Assembly (NCBI GenBank): GCA_002753395.1
Contig: PEAB01000037.1
Coordinates: 1-33,994, forward strand
Reading direction: 5' to 3'
Origin: Nitrospirae bacterium MYbinv3
Lineage (GTDB): Bacteria > Nitrospirota > Thermodesulfovibrionia > Thermodesulfovibrionales > Magnetobacteriaceae
DNA: 33,994 nucleotides
Shown: positions 20,366 through 27,150 of the stretch, piece after piece
Layout: every line of letters begins with the position of its first letter
Position numbering within the stretch: the stretch's first letter is position 1
The notes under the pieces: generated by a model
Told to the model about the DNA's origin: nothing
Seen by the model: the letters and a program-made list of their open reading frames with translations, nothing else
Database searches by the model: none
Position numbers and translations under genes: made by a program

Positions 20366-21382
20366 CTACCTTATTATAGTGACTGCTTCAGGTTTAACAG
20401 AGTTCAACGCATCTATATGTATAAATTGATAGTAATCTGGTATCTCTGCCACATCAACAACATTATCCTTCATCATCCATCTGGCTTGGTCCTCAAGCCT
20501 TAGAAGAAGCGACTGTTCTAAAAACACCTTCCACTTCATCTCCAGCAGTATCGGCGATATCTCTGTATCGATAACCCCCAGCCTCTTTGATACAATACGA
20601 ACCACCTCTTGTGGATGCGCTATAGCAAACTCCTCTGCCTGAATCAACGCCCTTAGAGTTTTTTTTACTACCCCTGGATGATTCTTTATGAAGCTGTTTA
20701 ACGCAATGATATTATAGTTTTTTACCAAAAGCCGTGGTTCTGCAAAGACAACGGCATTGTCTGTAAAATGCCTGACCCCTTGTGCAACAAACGGTTCTCT
20801 TGTGGATATGGCGTCAACCTCACCCTCCGTAAAAGATTTAAACGTAGAGGAAGGATCCTTTAAAACAATCTTTACGTCTTCTTTTGTCATCCCGTATTTC
20901 ATCAAGAACAGGTGCAAGAAGTAGTGCACTGCGGTCCCTTTGACCGTGGCGATGCGTTTGCCTTTTAAGTCGGCCGGCTTTATAATGCCCCTGTCTCTAC
21001 GGGCTACGATGCGCGGCTCGTTATCCGAGCTGCCGATTGTTGCTATGATTCTAAAGTCATGTCTTTTAAAGCTGTTAAAAACGACCATGTTGTCGGCCAC
21101 CGTTGACATGTCAAGACGGCCTTCAAACATGTCTCTTATGGCAACGTTTCCCCCCTCATAGTCTTTGACCGAAACGTCAAGGCCGTTTGCTGAAAAGTAG
21201 CCTTTCTCCTCAGCAATCATGCAGAGCGCCGTTATCGGCTCATTGGAATTCCCAATACTAACCTTTTCACGAGGTTCCGTGCGTTTATCAGCCTTCTTCT
21301 GGGTTACTAGAATAAGGCCAGATATAGCGATTACAGTAATTACGATTAACTTAATCGCTAAGTTTTGTAACCGCATTCTCAA
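20366..21382 (-). CDS. Membrane-anchored NMT1/SsuA-type periplasmic substrate-binding protein
   Basis: 338 residues with one hydrophobic N-terminal segment (about 10-27) after positive residues, followed by a type II periplasmic binding fold of the NMT1/SsuA/TauA group: ALCMIAEEKGYFSANGLDV, then DLKGKRIATVKGTAVHYFLH and DAISTREPFVAQG. No lipobox Cys and no convincing signal peptidase site are seen, so it may stay anchored. Such proteins usually feed an ABC transporter for sulfonates, nitrate or thiamine precursors, but no permease or ATPase gene is near. Its start overlaps the end of the hybrid kinase gene by 32 bases (26 if the third codon, also ATG, is used), and the five-PAS kinase follows 33 bases later, so a sensory role is likely. 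The ligand is unknown. Confidence 0.9.
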   Translation of the reverse strand: MRMRLQNLAIKLIVITVIAISGLILVTQKKADKRTEPREKVSIGNSNEPITALCMIAEEKGYFSANGLDVSVKDYEGGNVAIRDMFEGRLDMSTVADNMVVFNSFKRHDFRIIATIGSSDNEPRIVARRDRGIIKPADLKGKRIATVKGTAVHYFLHLFLMKYGMTKEDVKIVLKDPSSTFKSFTEGEVDAISTREPFVAQGVRHFTDNAVVFAEPRLLVKNYNIIALNSFIKNHPGVVKKTLRALIQAEEFAIAHPQEVVRIVSKRLGVIDTEISPILLEMKWKVFLEQSLLLRLEDQARWMMKDNVVDVAEIPDYYQFIHIDALNSVKPEAVTIIR

Positions 21383-24300
21383 AGACTCTAAGGTTGTTTA
21401 AAGCGCTGCCTATATCTTTTTTTCTGATAGAAAGCAGTATACGAAGAGCAGACTGTTGAAGCTGGCTTAGGCCTGCCTTTTCAACGTCTTTTTTCAGCTT
21501 GCTTACGTGTCTTTCGATGGCGTCGTAGTCTTCTCTGTTAAATGCCTCGTTTATTAGATCTAACTGTCGCGGCGCCTTTTTTAAGAACGATGTTAGCTCA
21601 TCTTGGCTATCATCTGTGGAACCGGAATTTTTACGCTCGCTTGTTGACTTTTTCGATATGTAACGGCTTATTATCTCAAGAAGGTCATTGGCCTTTATGG
21701 GTTTTGTAATATAGTCGTCCATACCGGTCTCAAGACAGCGTTCTTTGTCCCCTTTCATCGCATACGCAGTCATTGCTATTATAGGGATCGAACAAGTCGC
21801 TTTATTGGCTTTAATCCGTTTTGTTGCCTCAAAGCCGTCCATTACGGGCATGTGCACATCCATCAGGATGATATCAAACTTGCCCTGTTTTATTACCTCC
21901 AGGGCCTTTTCACCATCTTCAGCCTCTGTGACGGTGTATCCCTGTTTTTTCAGCACCTCCCTGGCCAACAACCTGTTGGTGGCATTGTCTTCTACCAACA
22001 GGATTTGCACAGGGGATGCTGCCTTCTTGAAGGTCTCATCATGTGGTCTTTTCAACTGAGGGGTGTATTCCGCAGGGGTGTGCTTCAACATGTTTTGTAC
22101 AACGTTTAAAACATCTTTGTATTTTATGGGTTTGATGATATAAGACGATAGACCAAGTTGGGAGCATTTTTCTATATCGCCGGTGCGGTAGTTGGAGTTG
22201 AGCATCATCACTATAGTGCCGGCAAGATTTGGATACTGTACTATGTACTCGGCCATCTTGAACCCCCCGATGCCGGCAATCCTGACGTCAATAAAGATGA
22301 TATCGTATGGACGGCCCTCCTCCCTGCTTCGATCGAGTTTATCCAATGCCTCTTTTGAATCGGATGCCTTACCGATCTCAGCGCCAAAGTCGCTGAGTAT
22401 CTCTTTTATTATCATACAACTGGTTGTATAGGTGCATATGGTTAGTATCTTTTTCCCTCTGAGGTCTAGCTCTGGAGGGGCTACGTTTAACTCCTCCATG
22501 TCTTTGAGTCTGACCCTTACGGTGAAGTGAAAGGCACTTCCTACTCCCTTTTTACTCTCTACCCATATGTCTCCACCCATAAGTTGAACGAGCTGCTTTG
22601 ATATGGTCAGGCCAAGCCCCGTGCCGCCGTACTTCCTTGTGGCAGAGCCATCGGCCTGTGCAAAGGTGCTAAATATGTATTCCAGCTTATCCTCAGGGAT
22701 GCCTATCCCTGTGTCAGAGACTGAGAAGTGGAGGCTTATCGAGTCCTCTTCTAAGCTGCCAGGTTCTATATAGACTACAACGACGACCTCACCATCTTCT
22801 GTAAACTTCAGGGCATTGCCAACGATGTTTATGATCACTTGATTCAGCCGTGCGGGGTCTCCTATTAACTTTGTTGGCATGTTGGGTTTTATCCGGCAGA
22901 ACAGCTCAATCCCCTTCTTGTGTGCCTGCACCGAGAGCGTGTCTATGATGTTTTCAACCAGGTGGTAGGGGTCAAAGACAACGCTTTCAACATCGAGTTT
23001 GCCGGCCTCCAACTTTGAAAAGTCCAGGATGCTGTTTAAGATCGTCAGAAGGGCGTTGGCCGATTGCAGCACCAGATCGAGGAAGTCCCGCTGCTGCTTT
23101 TTCAATTCGGTATCGAGGACGAACTCCGTCATCCCGATTATGGCGTTCATGGGGGTGCGTATCTCGTGGGACATGTTTGCAAGAAATTCGCTTTTGGTCT
23201 TGTTGGCCACCTCAGAGGCATCTTTTGCCGATCTTAACGCCTCTTCTATCTCCTTGCGGTTTGTTATATCCTCGTTGACCGATAGATAATGCGTAATGGC
23301 CCCCTCCGCATCCCTGATGGGTGAAATGGTAGCGTTATTCCAGTAGAGAGTGCCGTCTTTTTTCTTATTAAGCAACTCGCCATGCCATGTGCTACCCTTT
23401 GATATAGTCTTCCACAGGTCTTTGTAGACCTCCTTGGGGGTGTTGCCCGACTGTAGTATCTTCGGGTTTTTACCTATGACCTCATCCCTCGTATAGCCGG
23501 TTATCTCTATGAATTTGGGATTTACAAATTCCATGTTACCGTTTAAATCGCTAATGATCACTGCCACGGGGCTTTGGACTATGGCGCTTGAGAGTTTTAT
23601 CAGTTGTTCCTCGGCCTGCTTACACTCGGTTACGTCATTTACAAAGCCCTCATAGTACATGGGGCTGCCGTCGTCGTCCTTTACGATACGTATGTTTTGT
23701 TCTATGATGAGTTCGCTGCCGTCTGCTCTTCTGAGGCGGCTTACGAAATTCTTAGTTGAGCTTTGTCCTTTAAATGTCCTGACGAATCGCTCGTAATCAG
23801 TTCTTTTGAGGTACAGAGACGGCAGGTCGGGGCAGGCCGACAATAGTCCGTCCTGGCTGGTGTAGCCGAGCATCGTGATAAAGGCAGGGTTCATGGACAG
23901 GAATTGGCCTTCTGGGTTAAACCTGTAAAACCCGCTAAACGTGTTTTCAAACAACACCCTGTAGCTCTCCTCGGAGTTTCGCAGTTCCTTTGTGCGTATG
24001 CGGACCTTGTCTTCAAGCTCTTCGTTGAGGGTCTCTAGTTCTATCTGTGCCTTGATGAGTTCGCGGTTCTTGCGCACGGCGTTTTCGTATGTTGACAGGA
24101 GGAGGTTTAAGATGTGTTTTGGCTTGGATTTTATTTTATAGTCCTCGCCCATGAGGCTTATCTGTAGGATGTCTTGCGATACCTCGTTGTTTTCGCGTGC
24201 CGGGGAGCTTAAGATGTTTTCGATACTCTGCAGGATGTAGTCCTCGTCGTATGGTTTGGTTATATAGTAGTCGGCCTCAGACTGCAGGCCGCGTATTATC

Positions 24301-24587
24301 TCTTTTGTGTCTGAGAGGGCGGTCAAGAGGATCACCGGAATGTGTTTTAATTCCTCATCGATCTTAATCTTATAACACATTTCGTAACCGTCCATTACTG
24401 GCATGGCTATATCGCTGATGATCAGGGATGGTCTTCTGCTTTGGGTCAAGGAGAGGCCTTCAGCGCCGTTCTTAGCGGCGATAACTCCATAGCCCGATTT
24501 TGCCAAGGTACGCCGTAAGAGTTCCCGCTGCACCATGCTGTCCTCAACAACAAGGATCTCCCTACTCAGTCCAACCTTTGCATCCAT
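21351..24587 (-). CDS. Hybrid histidine kinase: receiver - PAS - PAS - kinase - pseudo-receiver - receiver - degenerate HPt
   Basis: 1078 residues without membrane segments, so cytoplasmic. Receiver 1 has D59 in IISDIAMPVMDG. A coiled coil and two PAS domains precede the kinase core with H474 in NMSHEIRTPMNA, RLNQVIINIVGNALKF, DTGIGI and GTGLGL. Receiver 2 keeps D767 (IFIDVRIAG) but has lost the acidic pocket, reading ILTICTYTT where ILVVDD is expected. Receiver 3 is complete, with D910 in ILMDVHMPVMDG. The C-terminal ~80 residues resemble an HPt bundle, but at the AHxLKG site the sequence reads RHVSKLKKDVEKAG. The ATG at 24587 is the first in-frame start and has no Shine-Dalgarno. It is the first gene of the kinase cluster, and its end overlaps the substrate-binding protein gene. 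Confidence 0.95.
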   Translation of the reverse strand: MDAKVGLSREILVVEDSMVQRELLRRTLAKSGYGVIAAKNGAEGLSLTQSRRPSLIISDIAMPVMDGYEMCYKIKIDEELKHIPVILLTALSDTKEIIRGLQSEADYYITKPYDEDYILQSIENILSSPARENNEVSQDILQISLMGEDYKIKSKPKHILNLLLSTYENAVRKNRELIKAQIELETLNEELEDKVRIRTKELRNSEESYRVLFENTFSGFYRFNPEGQFLSMNPAFITMLGYTSQDGLLSACPDLPSLYLKRTDYERFVRTFKGQSSTKNFVSRLRRADGSELIIEQNIRIVKDDDGSPMYYEGFVNDVTECKQAEEQLIKLSSAIVQSPVAVIISDLNGNMEFVNPKFIEITGYTRDEVIGKNPKILQSGNTPKEVYKDLWKTISKGSTWHGELLNKKKDGTLYWNNATISPIRDAEGAITHYLSVNEDITNRKEIEEALRSAKDASEVANKTKSEFLANMSHEIRTPMNAIIGMTEFVLDTELKKQQRDFLDLVLQSANALLTILNSILDFSKLEAGKLDVESVVFDPYHLVENIIDTLSVQAHKKGIELFCRIKPNMPTKLIGDPARLNQVIINIVGNALKFTEDGEVVVVVYIEPGSLEEDSISLHFSVSDTGIGIPEDKLEYIFSTFAQADGSATRKYGGTGLGLTISKQLVQLMGGDIWVESKKGVGSAFHFTVRVRLKDMEELNVAPPELDLRGKKILTICTYTTSCMIIKEILSDFGAEIGKASDSKEALDKLDRSREEGRPYDIIFIDVRIAGIGGFKMAEYIVQYPNLAGTIVMMLNSNYRTGDIEKCSQLGLSSYIIKPIKYKDVLNVVQNMLKHTPAEYTPQLKRPHDETFKKAASPVQILLVEDNATNRLLAREVLKKQGYTVTEAEDGEKALEVIKQGKFDIILMDVHMPVMDGFEATKRIKANKATCSIPIIAMTAYAMKGDKERCLETGMDDYITKPIKANDLLEIISRYISKKSTSERKNSGSTDDSQDELTSFLKKAPRQLDLINEAFNREDYDAIERHVSKLKKDVEKAGLSQLQQSALRILLSIRKKDIGSALNNLRVFENAVTKLSD

Positions 24588-24624: not shown

Positions 24625-24660
24625 CGCCTAAAAAAGAAAAGAGAGAAAGAAGGGAAGAGA

Positions 24661-24720
24661 AGGGAGGGCGCTGCCCTCCCTCAGACCCACCCGCAAGGGG
24701 ACTCGTCCCCTTGACCCCGT
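24661..24720. repeat. GC-rich double-hairpin intergenic repeat, copy C (inverted)
   Basis: The sequence is the inverse of copies A and B with small changes: palindromes AGGGAGGGCGCTGCCCTCCC and AAGGGGACTCGTCCCCTT. Changes in one arm matched or tolerated by the other suggest the hairpin rather than the exact sequence is kept. Confidence 0.85.
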
Positions 24721-24784
24721 AAATGTCGATCGTGGGTAGAGTGAGATGTTGCCTGTGTGCGTAGTCCTAAGTGTAGCGCTGTTT

Positions 24785-24866
24785 TGTGAAGTAAAGTTCA
24801 CAGGATCAGATATAAATGTGAAGTAAAATTCACAGAATCCCTTATGTATGTGAAGTAGAATTCTCT
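24785..24866. promoter_or_regulatory. Three palindromic sites with exact 32-bp period
   Basis: The unit TGTGAA-GTAAAR-TTCACA occurs at 24785-24802 and 24817-24834, and a third unit TGTGAA-GTAGAA-TTCTCT, with a decayed right arm, at 24849-24866. Unit starts are exactly 32 bases apart, close to three helical turns, so proteins bound at all three would sit on one face of the DNA. The array ends about 120 bases before the TPR-metallohydrolase ATG and begins about 200 bases upstream of the divergent kinase. It is most simply a cooperative operator, but iteron or recombination-site roles cannot be excluded. Confidence 0.7.
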
Positions 24867-24986
24867 TGATTTTGTACAGTTGATTGGTTAAATTAGTGAT
24901 AGTGTTCTTTAGATGGCTATAGAGTGTGTTTATTTTAAATGCGAACTATGGTTGGCGTATAGGCTTAAATTGTGGGAGTTGATAAG

Positions 24987-27086
24987 ATGATAATTGTAGA
25001 CATTGAAAAAAAGCTGGAAGATAGATACATAAAAGAGTATAAGTATTTACACAAGATAGAAGAAAGGTTACTTTTTTTTATTGGGTTAAGAGATGAGGCA
25101 AGAAGCAATAATCTGAAAAAATATGAATTATTTTTTGAAGGTTATATTGCTTTCCTAGAAAAGAATTGGGATAAGGCTGTTGAAAAATATGATGAATCTA
25201 TCAAGATAGATAATCATTTTTCACATCCAGTGTTTGGTCTGGGGTTTTTATATACAGAATTAAAACAGAATGAGAAGGCAAAAGAGTACTTCGAGCAGGC
25301 TGTTAAGTTAGATGAGAAATATCCAAGGAGCTGGAATGGTTTGGGTAATGTTTGTAGAAAACTAAAACAGTATGAAGAGGCCATAAATCATTACAAGAGG
25401 GCTATTGAGTTAGATAGCAGCTATTCGTCCCCCTTAAATGGTTTGGGGAATGTTTATTATGAATTAAAACAGTTTGAGAAAGCACAAGAAAATTACGAGA
25501 AGGCAATTAAACTGGATAATAAAAACTCACATCCTGTGAATGGTTTGGGAAATGTTTACTTTAGGTTAAGCCAGTATGAAGAGGCTATAAAGCATTACGA
25601 GCAGGCAATTGAGTTGGATAATAAAAACTCACATGCAAGATATGGTTTGGGAAATGTTTACTATGAATTAGGGCAGTATAAAAAAGCAAAAGAGTACTAT
25701 AAAAAGGCTATGGAGATTGCAATTGAGCAAAAAGATAAATATATTGAATCTATTGCACAAAGCAATCTTGATTTTATAGAAGAGAAATTAAAGGTAACTG
25801 TTATAGATCATTTGGATATTGATGCAAGTGAAATCGATGACATCCTTAATAAAACAGCGGCATTTGAAGACGAAATATATAAGAATAAGAAATCGTTCTT
25901 AGACTTTTTAAAGGAAGTGCCAAAAGAAGGTAGAGAAAGTACAGAAGACTCATATTTTCAAGTATTAAGGCGATGGAATTCCTATACACCAATCATTGCA
26001 GATAATTACCACGTGAGTAAAGGCGGGGGGTATTTTCTCCAGGTTAATGGAAAGGGTATAGTTATTGATCCTGGTTTTAACTTCATTGAAAACTTTATAG
26101 GAGCTGGGCATAAATTTGGTGAAATTGATTATGTATTTGTTTCTCATGCACATAACGACCACACATCAGACATTGAATCCATAATTACTCTTCTACACAA
26201 ATATAATAAAAGATTGAAGGGAATTGATGATTTCACAAGTGAAGATACCTTAAGAGCTGAAATAGCACGAGGAAGGAACTGTAGTATCAGCAATGTTTCA
26301 AAGAAAGATATCGATAATTTATTTAAAGAAAGGCGTAAGGTAATTAACTTTTACATTACAAAAAGCGTTTTTAAGAAATATGGCGGGATGTTCGAGTTGA
26401 AATCATCTACGGACTTCAATATACACATTGTTGAATCAGGGAACTCAAATGTAATAGACAACATAAAGTTCAGAGTTATAAAGGCAAAACACTTTGACAT
26501 TATTTCGGACAGAGATTCTGTTGGATTTGTATTTGAGATAAACGATGAAGTTCTGATTTACACTGGTGATACAGGTTGGAATGGAGAGATTGAAACCGAG
26601 TATGAAGAAATAGCTAAACATTATGAAGGCAAAAGGAAGCTATTAGTTGCGCACCTTGGTGGTTTTAAAGAAGACGAGAGGCAGACATTTTATGACAACC
26701 ACTTGGGAAGGTGTGGTCTTGCAAGGTTAATACAAGTTCTCGAACCAGAAATCTGTTTTATATCTGAGTTTGGAGAAGAAATGGGGCGTTATAGACCCCA
26801 AATAGCTGATATATTCAAAAATGTTTTCAATACCACGTTGTTTTTACCTGCTGACATAGGGCTTAAATACAGCTTTTCTCATAAGAAAATCTGGGCTATT
26901 ACAAATATTGACACATACAGACTTGTGCTTAATCAAAGTAAATATGGTTATGTTGCGCCAGAGGATGTTGGAGTAGTTGAGCTTATTATAAACTCATCAC
27001 TCCATTATTACGAAAAAAATGGTTTCTTTACAGTCGAAGTTCTAGTACAAGTCTTGAATAGTGATTACATGCAGAAGGCCAGATAA
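24987..27086 (+). CDS. TPR-repeat protein fused to a metallo-beta-lactamase-fold hydrolase
   Basis: 699 residues from the ATG at 24987, which has GGGAG 8 bases upstream; a GTG at 24972 overlaps that site. Residues ~50-245 form about six 34-residue TPR units (repeated GLGNVYYELKQYEKAKEYYEKAI pattern, broken here by unit), a protein-binding scaffold. The second half is a metallo-beta-lactamase fold with H387, H389, D391 and H392 in HAHNDH, then probable H502, D528 in GDTG and H556 in AHLGG, a complete two-metal site. An insert of ~100 residues follows the HxHxDH motif. No signal peptide or membrane segment is seen. The gene is much more AT-rich than its neighbours and is flanked by repeat copies C and D, suggesting acquisition. 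Substrate unknown; a nuclease or phosphodiesterase is as plausible as any other hydrolase. Confidence 0.88.
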   Translation: MIIVDIEKKLEDRYIKEYKYLHKIEERLLFFIGLRDEARSNNLKKYELFFEGYIAFLEKNWDKAVEKYDESIKIDNHFSHPVFGLGFLYTELKQNEKAKEYFEQAVKLDEKYPRSWNGLGNVCRKLKQYEEAINHYKRAIELDSSYSSPLNGLGNVYYELKQFEKAQENYEKAIKLDNKNSHPVNGLGNVYFRLSQYEEAIKHYEQAIELDNKNSHARYGLGNVYYELGQYKKAKEYYKKAMEIAIEQKDKYIESIAQSNLDFIEEKLKVTVIDHLDIDASEIDDILNKTAAFEDEIYKNKKSFLDFLKEVPKEGRESTEDSYFQVLRRWNSYTPIIADNYHVSKGGGYFLQVNGKGIVIDPGFNFIENFIGAGHKFGEIDYVFVSHAHNDHTSDIESIITLLHKYNKRLKGIDDFTSEDTLRAEIARGRNCSISNVSKKDIDNLFKERRKVINFYITKSVFKKYGGMFELKSSTDFNIHIVESGNSNVIDNIKFRVIKAKHFDIISDRDSVGFVFEINDEVLIYTGDTGWNGEIETEYEEIAKHYEGKRKLLVAHLGGFKEDERQTFYDNHLGRCGLARLIQVLEPEICFISEFGEEMGRYRPQIADIFKNVFNTTLFLPADIGLKYSFSHKKIWAITNIDTYRLVLNQSKYGYVAPEDVGVVELIINSSLHYYEKNGFFTVEVLVQVLNSDYMQKAR

Positions 27087-27100
27087 GCTCCACCACTATT

Positions 27101-27150
27101 TACGGGGTTAAGGGGGCTGGGGGCCCCTTGCGAGGGGGTCTGAGGGGTAA
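27101..27150. repeat. GC-rich intergenic repeat, diverged copy D
   Basis: This follows the TPR-metallohydrolase stop. The order (GGGGTTAAGGGG, GGGGCCCCTTG, GGGTCTGAGGGG) matches copies A and B, but the second hairpin is missing or truncated. The first stem may help end transcription, though no T-run follows. Confidence 0.65.

Follow-up and report, generated by a model that had tools for sequence, protein, structure and literature searches.

The contig PEAB01000037.1 of Nitrospirae bacterium MYbinv3, whose 33,994 nucleotides are referred to here as the window, carries at positions 24785-24866 an array of three palindromic units upstream of a gene for a protein with TPR repeats and a metallo-beta-lactamase-fold domain. 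We consider it highly probable that this array is the operator-promoter of a dispersed two-component regulon, governed by a response regulator that joins a receiver (REC) domain to an ArsR-type winged helix, and that the dimer on the promoter-proximal unit most likely activates transcription. The units start at 24785, 24817 and 24849, with start-to-start steps of 32 and 32 bp, and Tandem Repeats Finder describes the array with a period of 32 and a score of 102. The distal unit TGTGAAGTAAAGTTCACA (24785-24802, plus strand) and the middle unit TGTGAAGTAAAATTCACA (24817-24834, plus strand) are perfect TGTGAA-N6-TTCACA palindromes, centred at about -107.5 and -75.5 from the predicted transcription start, respectively; the promoter-proximal unit TGTGAAGTAGAATTCTCT (24849-24866, plus strand) is centred at about -43.5. 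An original prediction made from the window alone had described an operator array of palindromes at exact 32-base steps, with which the coordinates and the counts against controls agree, and had regarded the third unit as decayed; this unit is instead a promoter-proximal element, conserved in 49 aligned promoters, that abuts the -35. The predicted -35, TTGATT (24866-24871, plus strand), overlaps the end of the proximal unit by a single base, its first T, in a register that is the same in all arrays, and is followed at 17 bp by a weak -10, TAAATT (24889-24894, plus strand), which is predicted from the sequence and by inference.

The aligned promoters came from the window's own genome (G000; 3.71 Mb in 175 contigs) and three other species of the genus, and were anchored on the proximal unit. 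Their consensus reads TGTGAAGTAAAnTTCTCT(T/G)GATTT, with a -10-like sequence about 17 bp further on, and the common array end TGTGAAGWAGAWTTCTCT leads straight into TTGATT/TTGTTT or TGGATT. Because the right half of the proximal unit (...TTCTCT/TTCACT) continues into the -35, it is kept in virtually all arrays. The clearest -10s in other arrays lie at equal spacing: TATAAT (contig C117), TACACT (C98) and TATACT (C111). These promoters are predicted to be of the sigma-70 type, with the right half of the proximal unit abutting the -35, and the fixed -35/-10 register places the units near -43.5, -75.5 and -107.5. Among 23 aligned G000 promoters, a second unit stands at exactly -32 in 16 and a third at -64 in five to six, while block-shuffled upstream sequence gave a maximum of 3 at -32. 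Spacings of 31, 21 and 22 bp were also found; together with 32 bp, these correspond to two or three helical turns, which supports binding on one DNA face, as had originally been proposed. Near-identical promoter copies on contigs C57 (L203), C66 (L202), C95 (L208) and C153 (L201) have diverged units TGTGAAATGCAATTTTCA..TGAAAAATACATTTCTCT that are still 32 bp apart.

Pattern and profile searches, on which the genome-wide counts rest, found 16 perfect palindromes in G000 vs 2 for the reversed-pattern control, and 14 unit pairs exactly 32 bp apart (three mismatches or fewer) vs 0; the recurrence of the palindrome in this genome is not due to chance. A profile built from nine G000 promoters gave 59 matches in G000, 26 in G001, 33 in G002 and 6 in G003, and 2-9 in other genomes of the family, counts that include overlaps and reverse readings of single arrays; distinct boxed promoters in G000 number about 26. 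Sites on contigs C39, C84, C85, C11, C32 and C36 were set aside, being within coding sequence or without promoter context. The original prediction had suggested a search of the genome and databases at 32-base spacing; when this was run, the arrays recurred in G000 as just described, and a scan of 84,980 species returned a single perfect 32-bp pair outside this group, in candidate division KSB1 (L048:2946-2995), flanked by genes for an NtrC-type regulator and a TRAP transporter. The paired pattern was absent from the viral contigs searched.

The regulator that likely binds these palindromes is encoded elsewhere in G000, on contig C158 (L141:1077-1730, plus strand), as suggested by comparative genomics. 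In other genera of the family, perfect palindromes lie directly after the stop codon of the REC-winged-helix gene. When the search was reversed and the DNA-binding domain was sought in 176 genomes of the order, nine new loci had enough downstream flank, and eight of them carried the palindrome (6 TGTGA, 2 TGTCA) within about 130 bp or less of the stop codon. Over all loci examined, 17, spread over at least five families of the order, have a TGTGA palindrome just downstream of the regulator gene. The reversed-pattern control yielded 6 one-mismatch palindromes in the 3.71 Mb of G000, which corresponds to a chance rate of about 4 in 10,000 per 260-bp stretch. A second regulator-linked unit follows exactly 32 bp on in G035 and G031, and 31 bp on in G155. 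The C158 regulator falls within the clade of linked regulators (support 100/98) and carries DHTR, as does the regulator at L164, which has a TGTGAA site.

The receiver domain of this regulator matches Response_reg (E = 2.3e-29), with D8, D9, D52, T80 and K102 invariant. The DNA-binding domain matches HTH_20/HTH_5/DUF7347, HTH_20/HTH_5 being above the cut-off in relatives and below it for the G000 protein; residues 131-213 gave a profile match to PDB 2p4w (E = 2.1e-4), and the AlphaFold model shows helices and a two-stranded wing in this domain. Pfam matches at the C-terminus indicate that the output domain is not of the OmpR/PhoB, NarL/FixJ or NtrC type. Foldseek against the PDB returned receiver-domain matches, which were of no help for the winged helix. 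An open reading frame (ORF) at L141:346-1080, with histidine-kinase features recognized by reading only (SHEIN, GLGLAV), overlaps the start of the regulator gene by 4 bp; in relatives, kinase-like 3' ends lie upstream of the regulator gene, and a histidine-kinase gene adjoins it in several. G000 also has a second REC-winged-helix gene, a paralogue on contig C105 (L142:6635-7291, minus strand), which is followed by AGTCAAGTTATTGACA ahead of an enhancer-binding-protein gene. This paralogue, in which an AGTCAA-N4-TTGACA repeat precedes the adjoining enhancer-binding-protein gene, lies outside the linked clade and probably encodes a sister regulator that recognizes a separate operator.

Regulator and operator also vary together. 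Where the operator is of the TGTGA type (17 regulators), the recognition region reads (D/E/Y)DHT(K/R)-x-(V/M)FHL, while two regulators with an inserted residue, EEEHTK-(L/V)-AFHL, have the TGTCA operators TGTCAATTATTGTTGACA and TGTCAATTTTCCCTGACA; among the loci examined, homologues with DHRK, DSRK or DNAK had no such palindrome. Operator specificity thus apparently co-varies with the recognition region, the change falling at the expected place on both sides, although the TGTCA cases number only two and are perhaps related by descent. In nine genomes of the family, a sequence of 105-125 nt lies downstream of the regulator-linked promoter. Its long terminal stem (GGGRGCAG../..CUGCYCCC) shows paired changes; its interior contains GCGCCUA and a conserved stretch similar to CCUACCCUAAAAAAGCGCCUAUG, and the apical loop is rich in C. 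Examples are L145:7562-7667 (plus strand), L149:5677-5782 (minus strand), L150:6648-6768 (plus strand) and L151:6775-6898 (plus strand), among others. We regard this sequence as a candidate new structured small RNA. In relatives, the arrays stand between the conserved regulator gene and this RNA gene. Rfam gave no match that counts for the RNA at five of the relatives' loci. A covariance model found the RNA in 12 of 175 genomes, where it lies downstream of the regulator-linked box that would drive it; these include a model-only find at G002:C167:4623-4722 with the box directly upstream. The RNA was not found in G000.

From these data we infer the following sequence of events. A histidine kinase would phosphorylate the C158 response regulator, whose dimers, in a phosphorylation-dependent and possibly cooperative manner, would physically bind TGTGAA-N6-TTCACA units spaced by two or three turns, all on the same side of the DNA. 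Recruitment of RNA polymerase, in the manner of a class II-type activator, most likely falls to the proximal dimer, which is centred at about -43.5 and abuts the sigma-70 -35; the upstream dimers would add occupancy or contacts. The output in the window would be the TPR-metallohydrolase gene, and elsewhere many AT-rich, probably acquired genes, often of the conflict or defence type. More tentatively, and as a possibility only, this one REC/ArsR-type system may be a genome-wide switch for acquired conflict and defence genes, brought under its control through phased operators that were copied or arose by convergence; in relatives it may also drive the new class of structured small RNA.

Several observations weigh against this interpretation. 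In the genus of the window (g1; G000-G003), no site adjoins the regulator gene, so that for G000 the assignment is based on orthology and an identical operator. The KSB1 pair, by its location beside an NtrC-type gene, shows that palindrome pairs at 32 bp may arise together with a different regulator, and means that array geometry alone does not name the binder. Promoters of G001 and G002 often carry the proximal box alone. Some targets are not defence genes, such as the amylase pair on contig C117 (C117a), and several are unrelated enzymes. An operator abutting the -35 could serve a repressor as well.

This last point is the main rival to activation: the same regulator at the same sites might repress, the proximal dimer blocking the -35, so that signal-released repression switches the acquired genes on. 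Overlap of the operator with the -35 would suit such a mechanism, and conflict genes are often held silent, as by the local repressors CapW and BrxR (PMC9122588, PMC9122589). However, many promoters have poor -35s (TGGATT, TTGTTT) or weak -10s, as activator-dependent promoters would, TATAAT at C117b being an exception, and activators typically have in-phase upstream units such as those at -75.5 and -107.5. Because of the many poor -35s, such as TGGATT, and these in-phase units, we consider that the regulator likely activates its targets and that repression is unlikely, if still deserving of attention.

Alternative binders of the array appear less probable still. The array could be an upstream activating site for an enhancer-binding protein of the NtrC/TyrR type, considering that a distance of about 32 bp is known for NtrC sites as well and that the half-site resembles the TyrR box (TGTAAA-N6-TTTACA); G000 has about 14 full sigma54-activator genes, and the KSB1 pair adjoins an NtrC-type regulator gene. 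Nevertheless, the -35 and -10 lie 17 bp apart in fixed register with the proximal unit, no -24/-12 element was noticed when the aligned promoters were read by eye (no sigma54 scan was run), the two matches to the TyrR-type HTH_50 domain in G000 were not over the cut-off, and it is the REC-winged-helix gene that is the conserved neighbour at 17 loci, which makes such a binder quite improbable. An operator of the CRP/FNR family is suggested by the TGTGA...TCACA half-sites and by six CRP-type HTH matches in G000. The two half-sites are separated here by N8, two bases wider than the N6 of the CRP consensus, and no CRP-family gene is conserved beside the sites, whereas the REC-winged-helix gene is; we therefore regard this assignment as very improbable. 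Hardly any weight falls on the idea that the arrays are mobile-element ends or recognition sites, such as iterons, parS or transposon-end repeats. Some copies do stand ahead of ParA genes within repeated elements (C12, C109, C114 and C170), and the targets are AT-rich, but the arrays always stand in one register to the -35/-10, upstream of unrelated genes, and in relatives have the fixed position between regulator and RNA genes noted above.

Returning to the proposed two-component regulon, its member in the window is the TPR-metallohydrolase gene (24987-27086, plus strand; G+C 0.337), into which the predicted promoter reads, in keeping with one of the gene assignments first suggested for the array. 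Its start is placed at the ATG at 24987, which has GGAG upstream; the ORF list begins at the GTG at 24972. Service to the divergent gene for a hybrid histidine kinase (21351-24587, minus strand; PAS, HisKA, HATPase and three receiver domains), also initially considered, is not borne out, because the promoter points the other way. The motif had been thought unique in the window and without an adjoining regulator gene; both observations hold, with no further perfect palindrome in a pattern search of the window. The suggestion of a local or element-specific regulator does not fit an array that is one of about 26 such promoters, with the likely regulator on contig C158. Rfam returned no match that counts in the window.

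Elsewhere in G000, the boxed promoters precede genes for a lipoprotein, a membrane protein and a tubulin-like protein on C24, and for an AAA/nSTAND protein on C98. On C97 the product is a protein of 1428 aa without a Pfam match, in which HATPase- and PRTase-like segments were recognized by reading, and it has a TCAD9/APH-like partner. Other boxed promoters precede a PRTase operon with the strong -10 TATAAT (C117b), a Cas6-Cas8-like-Cas7-Cas5 operon (C123), and the repeated ParA elements. An operon on C91 (L205) encodes ThiF-like, YukD/ubiquitin-like, E2-like (E2 by reading) and 714-aa proteins, and is by its predicted content a ubiquitin-like conflict system of bacteria. The genes for a reverse transcriptase on C57 and for an Lcl_C/DUF1566 protein on C66, which stand behind the diverged promoter copies described above, possibly represent a diversity-generating retroelement with its targets. 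Further targets in G002 include a calcineurin-like and NACHT-like pair, a subtilase and others. In other species of the genus, orthologues of the C98, C97, C24, C140 and ParA genes likewise have the box in front of them. The mean G+C of 15 target genes was 0.366, vs 0.460 for 93 neighbouring ORFs (p = 2.4e-6), and the targets are probably mostly acquired. PADLOC gave only weak or generic matches for the target proteins; many of the targets appear to resemble conflict or defence systems, and a defence role may be suggested for them.

Where the transcriptional control of bacterial immune operons is known, it is mostly local. The WYL regulators CapW and BrxR and the CapK-CapS pair control conflict operons (PMC9122588, PMC9122589, PMC13373217) and are encoded in or beside their own operon, whereas here one regulator would have sites at about 26 scattered promoters. 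CovR, which controls CRISPR-Cas9 in Streptococcus agalactiae (PMC12216829), is likewise a two-component response regulator over a CRISPR-Cas system, but comes from another family; in the present case, a single operator design is common to many unrelated acquired systems. Regulators of the PhoB/OmpR and NarL/FixJ families resemble the present one in their intact phosphorylation residues, neighbouring histidine kinase, tandem phased sites and proximal site abutting the -35, and differ in the DNA-binding domain, which here is an ArsR-type winged helix (HTH_20/HTH_5, DUF7347). ArsR/HTH_20 regulators (PDB 2p4w) share this fold and sequence similarity over residues 131-213; in contrast, the domain here is fused to a receiver domain and probably acts as an activator. 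NtrC enhancers also have two palindromes 32 bp apart, but here no sigma54 promoter was seen on reading, the proximal unit abuts the -35, and the regulator is of another family. No paper on this system was found in a literature search that was poor in subscription journals. If a single signalling system does use one and the same operator grammar at about two dozen acquired loci, this would be a global immune-type regulon that supplies uncharacterized genes with a testable common signal; it would also add a new pair of regulator and operator, in which nature has apparently altered the specificity already (TGTGA to TGTCA).

Finally, G+C-rich repeats that are related and inverted (..CCCCTTGACCCCGTAAA / TTTACGGGGTTAAGGGG..) bracket the array and the AT-rich gene in the window, at 24660-24725 and 27095-27150. 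They look as if the gene had arrived as a cassette, and comparable repeats lie near other arrays.
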